Shown here: positions 1,441 to 27,306 of the stretch, one piece after another
Layout: each line of letters starts with the position of its first letter
How positions within the stretch are numbered: position 1 is the first letter of the stretch
Assembly (NCBI GenBank): GCA_009885695.1
Contig: VFKE01000018.1
Location: 1 to 34,263 of the forward strand
From: Verrucomicrobiota bacterium
Lineage (GTDB): Bacteria; Verrucomicrobiota; Verrucomicrobiia; Verrucomicrobiales; Verrucomicrobiaceae
DNA: 34,263 nt
Direction of reading: 5' to 3'
Translations under genes and position numbers: made by a program
Notes under the pieces: generated by a model
The model's database searches: none
Told to the model about the DNA's origin: nothing
Seen by the model: only the letters and a program-made list of their open reading frames with translations

Positions 1441-1528
1441 ATCCGCTGATTGCGCAGATTTCACAGATTAAAAATAATCGGCATTCGTTATTGATCCTAA
1501 TCTGCGTCCATCTGCGTAATCTGCGGAT
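1441..1528. repeat. Imperfect palindrome of ATCTGCG-type repeat
   Basis: Bases 1441-1459 (ATCCGCTGATTGCGCAGAT) are the inverted counterpart of 1510-1528 with 17 of 19 positions matching; further CTGCG/CAGAT words lie between. The element fills most of the spacer between the DUF6036-like gene and the aldehyde dehydrogenase. Text of this style is a common multi-copy intergenic repeat in environmental genomes. It could form a hairpin in the transcript, but there is no T-tract to make it a classic terminator. Confidence 0.7.
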
Positions 1529-1546
1529 CATCCCATTCATTATCAA

Positions 1547-2977
1547 ATGAGCATCCCCCACCTCCCCGCGCTCCGCAAAGGCGCGCCCTATGAAAGTCTC
1601 GACAAGATCGACGTCAAAGACCACCGCACCGGTGAAGTCCTCGCGCAAGTTAGCCAGGTCAACGCCGGCATCGTGCGCCGCGACCTCGCCCGCATCTCCG
1701 AAACCCGAGCGGACTTGAAGAAATTCACCTGCGAACAACTCATCGCCTTCTGCAAGAAGGCGGGAGAAATTTTTCTCACAGGAACACTGCCGCTCGGCGA
1801 CAAAGGTCACACCCAGTCGCCCCAGCAATACATGGAGACGCTCTCGCGCACCAGCGGCCTGCCTTATGTGATGGTGAAACGCAACATGGCAAAAATTTAC
1901 GAAGCGCTGGCGAACATGCGCACCGTTCTCAACGGCCTGACACGCGGACTCGATTTGAGCATCATCGACGACGGCTTCGGCGAACAGGCCGGCTGCCCGG
2001 TGAGCTATTATCCCACAACCAATTGCCTCGGCCTTGTGATGCCGAGCAATTCGCCTGCGGTGAATTCACTCTGGCTTCCCGCGATCGCGCTGAAAACTCC
2101 CGTGATCATCAAGCCGGGCCGCGAAGAACCTTGGACACCTTTCCGCCTCATCCAGGCTTTCATTGCCGCGGGTGTCCCAGCCAGTGCGTTCGGCTTTTAT
2201 CCGACCGATCACGAAGGCTCTGGCGAAGTTCTGAAGCTCAGCGGTCGCGCGTTGATCTTCGGCGATGCCAACACCGTCGCGCAATACAAGGACAACCCGA
2301 AGTTCGAGTGCCACGGCCCCGGCTTCAGCAAGGTCATCATCGGTGAAGATCAGATCGAACAATGGGCCGAGTTCATTGATCTCATCGCCGCCTCCATTTC
2401 CGACAACGGCGGCCGCTCCTGCGTGAATGCTTCCGCCGTCGTGGTGCCGAAATACGGCAAGGAAATCGCCGATGCCCTCGCACAAAAGCTCGGCCCCGCA
2501 CAGCCGCTACCACGCGAAGATGAAAACGCGCGCCTCTCTGGTTTCGCCAATCCGAAGATGGCCGAGTTCATCGACACCGCCATCGAAGCCGGCCTCAAAG
2601 AACCCGGCGCGGAAGACATAACCGCGAAGTATCGCGGTGGCCCGCGCAGAGCCGAACTCGACGGCGGTGTGTACATGCGTCCGACCATCGTGCTTTGCGA
2701 CAGCTTCAAGCACTCATTGAGCAACCGCGAATATCTCTGCCCCTACGCCAGCGTGGTCGAAATGCCGCAAACGGAGATGCTCCAGCAAATAGGCCCGTCG
2801 CTGGTCGTCACCGCCATCACCAAGGATCCGAAGTTCATCGAGCAATTGCTCGACAGCCCGCTCATCGAGCGCCTCAACATCGGCCTGGTGCCCACGACGA
2901 AAATCTCATGGAACCAGCCGCACGAAGGCAACATGTTCGAGTTCCTCTATAAGCGCCGCTCCATTGAAGTAGCCTGA
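1547..2977 (+). CDS. Aldehyde dehydrogenase superfamily protein (atypical)
   Basis: At 476 residues this has normal ALDH length. It is expected to oxidise an aldehyde using NAD(P), giving an acid or, in acylating relatives, an acyl-CoA. The nucleophile Cys292 lies in the motif NGGRSCVNAS, and the cofactor domain carries IKPGREEPWTPF at about residues 187-198. The canonical ELGG box with the general-base Glu is missing; the matching stretch reads HGPGFSKVIIGED. Loss of that Glu is typical of CoA-acylating ALDHs, so an acylating or otherwise non-standard reaction is possible. An iron-type alcohol dehydrogenase starts 6 bases downstream, which suggests aldehyde/alcohol interconversion by the pair. 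The substrate is unknown, and no microcompartment shell gene is nearby. Confidence 0.85.
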   Translation: MSIPHLPALRKGAPYESLDKIDVKDHRTGEVLAQVSQVNAGIVRRDLARISETRADLKKFTCEQLIAFCKKAGEIFLTGTLPLGDKGHTQSPQQYMETLSRTSGLPYVMVKRNMAKIYEALANMRTVLNGLTRGLDLSIIDDGFGEQAGCPVSYYPTTNCLGLVMPSNSPAVNSLWLPAIALKTPVIIKPGREEPWTPFRLIQAFIAAGVPASAFGFYPTDHEGSGEVLKLSGRALIFGDANTVAQYKDNPKFECHGPGFSKVIIGEDQIEQWAEFIDLIAASISDNGGRSCVNASAVVVPKYGKEIADALAQKLGPAQPLPREDENARLSGFANPKMAEFIDTAIEAGLKEPGAEDITAKYRGGPRRAELDGGVYMRPTIVLCDSFKHSLSNREYLCPYASVVEMPQTEMLQQIGPSLVVTAITKDPKFIEQLLDSPLIERLNIGLVPTTKISWNQPHEGNMFEFLYKRRSIEVA

Positions 2978-2983
2978 CATCGC

Positions 2984-4102
2984 ATGACCCCGCTCTCCGC
3001 ATTCGACAAAACCCCGCGGACCCGCGTCGTCTTCGGCAACGGTGCGCTCGTGCGACTCGGTGAACTGGCGCGCAGTCTTGCCTCACGCGCGCTCGTGGTC
3101 ACGGATGCGGGCATCGTGAAAGCCGGGCACGCAGAACGCGCGCGCGACTCTCTGCGCGCCGCTGGCCTGAAGGTGGAACTCTTCGATCGTGTGCATGAGA
3201 ATCCCAGCACACGCGATGTAACCGACTGCGTCGCGGTCGCGCGCGCTTTCCAGGCTGACCTCATCATCGGCCTGGGCGGAGGCAGCAGCATGGACACCGC
3301 CAAGGGTTGCAACTTCATCATCACCAACGGTGGCGAAATGAAAGACTACTGGGGCGTGAACAAGGCCACGAAGGAAATGCTCCCGCTCATCGCCGTCCCC
3401 ACCACCGCCGGCACCGGCAGCGAATGCCAGAGCTTCGCGCTCATCTCCGACGAGGTCACGCACGCCAAAATGGCCTGCGGCGATACCAAGGCTGCCGCGA
3501 AGATCGCGTTGCTCGATCCGGAGCTCACGATCTCCATGCCGCAGCGCGTCACGGTGCTCACTGGCATCGACGCCATCGCCCACGCCATCGAGACTGCTGT
3601 AACCAAGAAGCGCAACGCCATCTCCGCGATGTATTCCCGCGAAGCCTTTCGCCTGCTCACTGGCGGTTTCGAGCGCGTGCTGCGCGATCCCAATGACCTC
3701 GAAGCCCGCGGCTTCATGCTGCTTGGCGCGGCCTTTGCGGGCACGGCGATTGAAAATTCCATGCTCGGCGCGGCACATTCTTGCGCCAACCCGCTCACTG
3801 CTCATTTCGACATTGTGCACGGGCACGCCGTCGGCCTGATGCTGCCGCACGTCATCCGTTTCAACAGCGTGCGGGTCGAATCCGCTCTGGAGTATCGCGA
3901 TCTCTACGACGGTGATCTCGCCGGGCGCGTCAGCATCCTCTTGAATGAAGCGCGCCTGCCCGGAAAGCTCGCGGACCTGGGCGTGGCAGAAGATGACATC
4001 TCCAAACTCGCAGCCGAAGCCGCCACGCAGTGGACCGCGCAGTTTAATCCGCGCGAAGTGACCGTGGCCGATTTCGCAAAGCTCTACGAAGCGGCCATGT
4101 AA
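2984..4102 (+). CDS. Iron-containing alcohol dehydrogenase
   Basis: This 372-residue group III (Fe-type) alcohol dehydrogenase probably reduces an aldehyde or oxidises an alcohol with NAD(P). The nucleotide-binding motif GLGGGSSMDTAKG is at about residues 96-108, and TTAGTGSE follows at about 140. The four metal ligands of the family are present: Asp196, His200, His265 and His279. The extra His found in FucO-type enzymes four residues after the third ligand (AHPLG context) is Asn269 here (HSCANPLTAH), a substitution that may affect catalysis or substrate choice. The gene lies 6 bases after the aldehyde dehydrogenase and is surely co-transcribed with it. The family is clear; the substrate is not. 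Confidence 0.93.
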   Translation: MTPLSAFDKTPRTRVVFGNGALVRLGELARSLASRALVVTDAGIVKAGHAERARDSLRAAGLKVELFDRVHENPSTRDVTDCVAVARAFQADLIIGLGGGSSMDTAKGCNFIITNGGEMKDYWGVNKATKEMLPLIAVPTTAGTGSECQSFALISDEVTHAKMACGDTKAAAKIALLDPELTISMPQRVTVLTGIDAIAHAIETAVTKKRNAISAMYSREAFRLLTGGFERVLRDPNDLEARGFMLLGAAFAGTAIENSMLGAAHSCANPLTAHFDIVHGHAVGLMLPHVIRFNSVRVESALEYRDLYDGDLAGRVSILLNEARLPGKLADLGVAEDDISKLAAEAATQWTAQFNPREVTVADFAKLYEAAM

Positions 4103-26615: not shown

Positions 26616-26730
26616 ATTTCCGTGACCCGGCGGGTCAAGAGAAAATAGCCGGTGGTGAAGCAACGCGAAACCACCGGTTCACCGCATTCATTGCCCAGCG
26701 CCCTGGCAAGGGCGCGAGAAACCACCGCCA
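26616..26730 (+). repeat. Left REP-like arm of the RAYT element
   Basis: The arm holds three hairpins: GACCC/GGGTC (26624-26636, loop GGC), CCGGTGGT/ACCACCGG (26649-26656 with 26670-26677) and GCGCCC/GGGCGC (26698-26703 with 26710-26715). Inverted, it aligns along its full length with 27181-27294; the first 63 columns match at 52 positions by eye. Confidence 0.9.
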
Positions 26731-26733
26731 CAC

Positions 26734-27180
26734 TCACCATAAATATTTCTCGTCATATTTAATCCCGCATTTCTCCAAAAACTCCCGGTATTCCTCCTGA
26801 AACGTCCGGGTGCGGTGATGCTCCTCCTGATTCAACACATACTTCCGCACATCCTCGATCTGCGAGGGGCTCACCGCGATGGCGGCATATCCCTCCTGCC
26901 AGGCGAATCCCGGGACGGCCATCTTCTCATGAACCCACCGTGATGATTCACTCTTCAATTCACGCAATACATCCGCGATCGCGTGGGTAGCCTTCAGGCC
27001 GACGAGCAAATGCACATGGTCGGAGACGCCGCCCACCGCCATCGGGACGCCGTTCATTCCCTTGATGACGCCGCCCATGTATTGGTGGAGGCGGTCGCGC
27101 CATGAGGGGGCGATCCATGTTTCACGGTGCTTCGTGCTGAAAATCAGATGATAATTCAGGCTGAGGTGGGTCGAGGGCAT
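26734..27180 (-). CDS. REP-associated tyrosine transposase (Y1_Tnp, IS200-like)
   Basis: The 148-residue protein is a complete HUH single-strand transposase. It opens with LSLNYHLIFSTKHRE, the typical IS200/RAYT first strand, then has the metal-binding His55-Val-His57 (GVSDHVHLLVGL) and the catalytic Tyr114 in QIEDVRKYVLNQEEHH. FAWQEGYAAIAVS is the usual segment before the catalytic helix. No residue expected for activity is missing. It would nick and join single-stranded DNA at the hairpins of the flanking arms. The ATG directly abuts the right arm, so the arm is also its 5' leader and may fold to limit translation (inference). Confidence 0.93.
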   Translation of the reverse strand: MPSTHLSLNYHLIFSTKHRETWIAPSWRDRLHQYMGGVIKGMNGVPMAVGGVSDHVHLLVGLKATHAIADVLRELKSESSRWVHEKMAVPGFAWQEGYAAIAVSPSQIEDVRKYVLNQEEHHRTRTFQEEYREFLEKCGIKYDEKYLW

Positions 27181-27294
27181 GGCGGACGTTTCTCACGCTC
27201 CTATCGGAGCGCCAGCGGATGTTTCTCTGTGACCGGTGGTTCCGCTGCGCTGCACCACCGGCTAAGTTCTTTTGCCCCTCCGGGGCACGGAAAT
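27181..27294 (-). repeat. Right REP-like arm of the RAYT element
   Basis: Three hairpins: CGCTCC/GGAGCG (27196-27201 with 27206-27211), CCGGTGGT/ACCACCGG (27233-27240 with 27254-27261) and GCCCC/GGGGC (27274-27278 with 27282-27286). Relative to the left arm, stem changes come in pairs that keep base pairing: A-T to C-G in the outer hairpin and C-G to T-A in the inner one. Confidence 0.9.
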
Positions 27295-27306
27295 GTCTGC
27301 GGCAGA

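Follow-up and report, generated by a model that had tools for sequence, protein, structure and literature searches.

A probable REP-like mobile system: inverted three-hairpin arms around a subclass-1.2-type TnpA-Y1 transposase gene in a Verrucomicrobiota bacterium

A 34,263-nucleotide stretch of DNA from a Verrucomicrobiota bacterium (the window, meaning the whole stretch that was analysed) holds a transposase gene, tnpA, enclosed by two inverted arms. The locus raises the question of which kind of enzyme the gene encodes, whether the arms belong to it, and whether gene and arms form part of a system that moves. We consider it highly probable that the window element is an autonomous copy of a REP-like single-strand mobile system run by a TnpA-Y1 (HUH) transposase of subclass 1.2.

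Layout of the locus and subclass of its enzyme

In the window sequence, tnpA is flanked by the inverted arms listed in Table 1. Independent repeat detection returned an inverted repeat at 26616-26678 and 27232-27294 (83%), and a covariance model recovered both full arms with tnpA in between, at 26621-26721(+) with 97.7 bits and at 27189-27289(-) with 97.1 bits. Read from outside to inside, each arm consists of hairpin H1, a short linker and TAGCC-H2, followed after some 20 nt of spacer by H3 with its GAGAA tail. An earlier note on this DNA, made from the sequence alone, had placed tnpA between two inverted arms of about 115 bp with three hairpins each. The placement and the three hairpins hold for both arms; the length is corrected to about 105 bp, with 8 bp between the right arm and the tnpA start codon.

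Table 1. Features of the window element (CM, covariance model)
Feature	Position	Strand	Description	Basis
Left arm	26616..26721	+	H1, linker, TAGCC-H2, spacer, H3, GAGAA tail	Inverted repeat, CM hit
H1 of left arm	26623..26637	+	TGACCC-GGC-GGGTCA	Sequence, covariation in 21 own-genome arms
TAGCC motif	26646..26650	+	5' foot of H2 (left arm)	21-arm alignment
H2 of left arm	26649..26677	+	Stem CCGGTGGT/ACCACCGG	
H3 of left arm	26698..26715	+	GCGCCCT..AGGGCGC, then GAGAA 26716-26720	
tnpA	26734..27180	-	148-aa HUH/Y1 transposase, subclass-1.2 type (DHVH, WQ, YVLNQEEHH)	
Right arm	27189..27294	-	Same part order on minus strand	CM hit
H3 of right arm	27195..27212	-		Sequence
H2 of right arm	27233..27261	-	Stem same as left arm's	Sequence
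H1 of right arm	27273..27287	-	TGCCCC-GGA-GGGGCA, compensated relative to left arm	
Right insertion boundary	27295..27298		Homology with same-genus genome stops	G001 flank matches up to GTAGTCTGCCGCAG, then diverges

The window protein matched Pfam Y1_Tnp (5.7e-23) and passed the NCBIfam IS200 cut-off (64.2 bits, cut-off 55), and failed that of REP_Tyr_transpos (21.4 bits, cut-off 80), against which its own-genome paralogues scored at most 28.8 bits. Its tyrosine motif reads YVLNQEEHH, in which Y114 and Q118 do not vary among 13 homologues, and the class-2 tyrosine motif Y---NP is not present. The failed cut-off and the missing Y---NP rule out the RAYT identity that the earlier note had assigned to the transposase. 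The protein has the DH[IV]H, WQ and Y---Q--HH motifs, the length of about 148 aa, the C-terminal tail and the low number of diverged copies that mark TnpA-Y1 subclass 1.2, and by its sequence it fits that type. An AlphaFold model (pLDDT 88) found its best PDB matches in ISDra2 and IS608 TnpA, with TnpAREP (4er8) lower. One trait is of the RAYT type: REP-like palindromes surround the gene and also occur as dispersed copies. At another locus, L068, the subclass-1.2 protein (1501-1944, minus strand) has DHVPV in place of DHVHL, which breaks the HUH motif, and the arms there are intact.

Variation in the hairpin stems

The two window arms differ in 4 of 21 stem pairs, none of which is broken, and in 25 of 59 unpaired positions. 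Two-sided swaps account for one pair in H1 (A-T/C-G) and two in H3 (C-G/T-A and T-A/C-G), and the fourth pair changes from G-C to G-T with pairing retained. All seven differing stem positions thus stay paired, as the earlier note had claimed; when seven stem changes were placed at random, every pair remained intact in only 3 of 20,000 trials. The H2 stem CCGGTGGT, also described there as unchanged, indeed shows no difference between the arms.

A plain MAFFT alignment of 21 own-genome arms extended this pattern. All six H1 pairs showed two-sided changes (one of them C-G in 11 arms and G-C in 8), three H3 pairs covaried, H2 was nearly invariant, and each of the five letters of TAGCC was invariant or at least 90% conserved; the covariation score of 0.302 exceeded those of shuffles (0.106) and of slid pairing (at most 0.096). 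For 111 distinct arms, most of them from relatives, 19 of 21 pairs had two-sided changes, 97.2% of cells were paired and the score was 0.434 (shuffles 0.149, slid controls at most 0.062), in an alignment that was fitted to the covariance model and hence is biased towards it. Scores above both the shuffled and the slid controls in both alignments, together with the swaps between the two window arms, support on comparative grounds the earlier view that the folded structure of the arms is under selection.

Among elements the H2 stem takes several forms, including CCGGTGGT, CCGGGGGC, CCAGGGGT, CCACGGGC and others. In 37 of 47 elements the two arms carried one and the same stem, compared with 12% between elements, and H2 stems occurred 65 and 58 times on the arm strand versus 15 and 9 times on the opposite strand. 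Across 244 arms, no conserved sequence was found beyond the H3 tail or outside H1, and a target-site motif adjoining H1 was looked for in these arms and not found.

Arms, genes and the Rfam family RF01687 across genomes

We searched with R1, a covariance model built from the 21 own-genome arms only. Among 31 subclass-1.2 loci (29 from relatives and two own), R1 arms stood on both sides at 20 by automatic count, and at 21 when L067 is included, where the gene (1124-1567) lies near a contig end. The arms face inwards almost always, with H3 adjoining the gene; a minority of the loci had no arms by this model. R1 also detected arms beside many subclass-1.2 genes of other phyla, and arms flank such genes in Verrucomicrobiota, Planctomycetota, Acidobacteria, Bacteroidota and Proteobacteria (Methylobacter). 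A protein-alignment scan of named genomes covered these five phyla, reaching Methylobacter and Gallionellaceae in the Proteobacteria, as well as Fibrobacteres and Sumerlaeota. Prosthecobacter MAGs gave its nearest named hits, which suggests the family Verrucomicrobiaceae for the own genome. Inverted flanks exceeded the 99% level of mismatched pairs at 46 of 73 loci. Gene and arms occurred together in 44 of 57 genomes, the gene only in 3, the arms only in 2 and neither in 8, a count that is not phylogenetically independent, six of the last eight genomes belonging to one genus.

Quentin et al. (2018) described subclass 1.2 as having no REPs and generally no terminal structures, no IS properties, a low copy number and an unknown role, and reported it mostly from Cyanobacteria and Bacteroidetes (PMC6006769); we found no description of its ends in the open-access literature. 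The arms on both sides of 21 of the 31 loci, and in other phyla, contradict the stated lack of REPs or terminal structures. Because the class was defined by sequence clustering, we read the arms as correcting the published description.

The arms also correspond to an Rfam entry: the 46-nt consensus of RF01687 (Acido-Lenti-1) is the reverse complement of H1-linker-TAGCC-H2. The gathering score of the family is 37 bits; the window right arm is a weak match (20.7 bits), while own-genome arms on contigs C12 and C100 reached 40.8 and 39.6 bits and the arms of locus L187 55-58 bits. In Planctomycetota and other groups, RF01687 matches flank subclass-1.2 genes on either side. Among the matches listed, it occurred within 250 bp of 16 of 149 subclass-1.2 genes and within 700 bp of 18 of 149, compared with 0 of 150 class-2 genes at either distance. 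These comparisons suggest that the Acido-Lenti-1 'small RNA' family is really part of these arms. Rfam microRNA matches were disregarded, their scores being far under their thresholds.

The proximity counts bear directly on another reading, in which the arms would serve the class-2 RAYTs of the same genome as REPs, the subclass-1.2 gene being a passenger. Class-2 RAYT genes are common in these genomes, TAGCC-H2 is similar to a GTAG REP, and arm pairs in two relatives (G003 and G013) are enclosed by outer TAGAGCATTTT..CTATAGCC repeats that resemble other REPs. Of 20 class-2 RAYT loci, which include eight from the own genome, none has an adjacent arm, however, and most carry other inverted repeats; one isolated arm pair lies about 1 kb from such a locus. 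RF01687 was absent from the 16 class-2 loci searched for it and from the 700 bp around the 150 listed class-2 genes, and the two arms of a subclass-1.2 element have a common H2 stem. The reading was rejected on these proximity tests, and we regard it as very unlikely.

The own genome has at least eight class-2 RAYT-like genes beside its subclass-1.2 genes (L130-L137), most with inverted repeats of their own. It also holds a second repeat family, about 90% identical, that reads GTAGCCGCATCTCGTAAGAGTGCGG..., is preceded by GAGCATTTT-ATTAAA and resembles a class-2 RAYT REP; it was located at G000:C90:11593-11752 and at least 13 other places. At L263-L271 (G003 and G013), three-hairpin pairs are nested in outer inverted repeats TAGAGCATTTTNATTAAARCTATAGCC. 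The outer parts are likewise missing from the empty site of L270, and movement there may therefore be nested or composite.

Copies, movement and comparison with known systems

BLAST with the left arm found many copies in the own genome, and the genome-wide search that the earlier note had proposed returned 32 arms by R1 at E<0.01, mostly gene-less and often as inverted pairs. Only four of the 32 frame an intact gene (on C58 and C186). There are seven inverted pairs without a gene, each about 205-230 bp long (C185, C77, C85, C12, C100, C90 and C209), and on C202 a pair surrounds a broken gene. Full-length tnpA genes number five, the other four being 41-62% identical to the window gene; inverted repeats directly hug the paralogues on C186, C108 and C130, and an RF01687 match lies 95 bp from that on C55. 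Single-copy, diverged genes with many arms point to a REPtron/REPIN lifestyle and not to that of a classical IS.

Tandem forms clarify how an arm is built. At L187 (1260-1441), a unit of hairpin, tail, TAGCC-H2 and spacer is repeated three times with a 68-bp period and closed by a last hairpin. This shows H1 and H3 to be hairpins of one kind, and an arm to be a single hairpin-tail-TAGCC-H2-spacer unit plus a closing hairpin. Hairpin-TAGCC-H2 units also stand in tandem direct repeats at G050:C59:28710-29105, the period in G050 and L187 being 68-70 bp. Other arrangements are BIME-like: twelve alternating arms (+ - + - ...) in steps of about 117 bp at L173 of Rhodopirellula solitaria (2014-3406), and an alternating-arm array at L098 (G010). 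L070 and L073 have an arm doublet on each side of the gene.

Movement is evident from comparison with relatives. The C185 pair is absent at the matching site of the same-genus genome G001, with flanks about 85% identical: the empty site reads ...GTAA|GGGTATCAGTG..., and the own genome ...GTAA|ATTCAAGCC...GGAGCATTGGGCGCGGACTACGAATTCAGTG. One end of the insertion lies at H1, about 20 nt are left over on the other side, and no target duplication is visible against the empty site. Likewise, an arm pair of G013 is absent from G003, the insertion extending more than 40 nt past H1 on both sides. For the window element, homology with G001 stops beside the right arm (Table 1), and the left flank is unrelated and gave no alignment, so that only the right edge is fixed; flank searches against G037 and G021 gave no result. 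The earlier proposal to compare empty and filled sites thus succeeded for the C185 and G013 pairs, with the window element's left flank unalignable. One insertion is common to G012, G002 and G018, and some copies are therefore old. Single arms in G024 and G053 have mostly unrelated flanks that start near the base of H1. With empty sites and two species-specific insertions observed, the arm pairs are mobile. Further copies, covariation, and empty and filled sites were all found, and the earlier proposal of a selected, folded unit therefore stands on the points where it could have failed. At the C186 element (L002, G000:C186:49903-50929), a partial duplication surrounds the insertion: a similar copy of one stretch, AATCCACGC-AGAAACTCCCG..., is present in both flanks.

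Such mobility would also suit a palindrome-ended insertion sequence of the ordinary IS200 type, as would the passed IS200 cut-off and the nearest folds, ISDra2 and IS608 TnpA. Against this, the same-genome paralogues are only 41-62% identical to the window gene, most arms are gene-less, and the C-terminal extension and Y---Q--HH motif are those of subclass 1.2. The long inverted arms differ from IS200 ends, which are same-strand hairpins; we found neither the near-identical copies of IS200 (subclass 1.1) nor its same-strand LE/RE hairpins with fixed tetranucleotide cleavage sites. We judge an IS200-type element slightly less probable still than class-2 REPs. A function of the arms chiefly at the RNA level (terminator-like or as a regulatory sRNA), with the transposase incidental, agrees with their paired stems, with the first publication of RF01687 as a probable RNA (PMC2864571) and with a 2026 speculation that it regulates nearby proteases (PMC13298647), but is the least probable reading of all, given that the arms move, pair up in inverted orientation, build alternating arrays and tandem units in other genomes, and stand mirror-oriented on both gene sides in several phyla. 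A secondary RNA role, besides mobility, is possible.

For the REP-like system run by a subclass-1.2 enzyme, we infer enzyme action on the arms and propose the following mechanism. The arm strand would be exposed single-stranded, either on the lagging strand or through hairpin extrusion. Much as TnpAREP reads GTAG-hairpins, a TnpA dimer may recognise TAGCC-H2, presumably binding it on one strand only, and H1 and H3 with their AGAA tails could be flanking recognition or cleavage sites. The TnpA tyrosine would cut and rejoin DNA and in this way spread arms, pairs and the gene-bearing unit. Gene-less pairs would be mobilised in trans, which would explain why arms outnumber genes.

More broadly, it is likely, if less so than the reading of the window element itself, that subclass 1.2 constitutes, in many phyla, a second REP-like mobile system whose composite hairpin-TAGCC-hairpin-hairpin ends are extended by tandem addition and by inverted pairing, and that the Acido-Lenti-1 'RNA' is their single-stranded-DNA end and not a small RNA. 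Subclass 1.2 has so far been a set of proteins without a substrate, and the arms are a likely DNA partner that is concrete and testable. REP-like spread would then probably reach beyond class-2 RAYTs, and an Rfam family that genome papers still list as a possible regulatory RNA would have a possible explanation. The natural variation (H2 within and between elements, compensated H1) offers a map of where the enzyme should recognise sequence and where shape.

Compared with known systems, the locus shares with published TnpA-Y1 subclass 1.2 the DH[IV]H, WQ and Y---Q--HH motifs, the length of about 148 aa and the low, diverged copy number (PMC6006769), but it adds arms of a defined three-hairpin design, and its type is frequent in Verrucomicrobiota and Planctomycetota. 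With IS200/IS605 elements (IS608, ISDra2) it has in common the Y1 HUH fold and hairpin ends; it differs in that its ends are inverted arms where theirs are LE/RE hairpins on the same strand, that its gene copies are not nearly identical, and that no tnpB lies between the arms. TIRYTs likewise place a tyrosine transposase between inverted repeats that also occur dispersed (PMC3733652), but mostly belong to subclass 2.1 and carry an HTH-like tail as well as a GGGGWSAS motif (PMC6006769). Rfam files RF01687 as an sRNA whose function is unknown; at these loci it appears as a portion of a mobile DNA end beside a transposase. The earlier note had thought a three-hairpin unit in a probable verrucomicrobium less described. 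GTAG REPs are already known from the verrucomicrobium Opitutus terrae (PMC3733652), so REPs in this phylum are not new; new here are the three-hairpin ends and the subclass-1.2 enzyme branch that has them. The closest resemblance in lifestyle is to REPtron/REPIN/BIME systems with TnpAREP, in which inverted palindromes with a (G)TAG-like foot also frame the gene and many gene-less copies and inverted pairs are dispersed, but the enzyme here belongs to another branch than TnpAREP (RAYT, class 2), with Y---Q in place of Y---NP, and each end is a three-hairpin composite with H2 between two H1-like hairpins.
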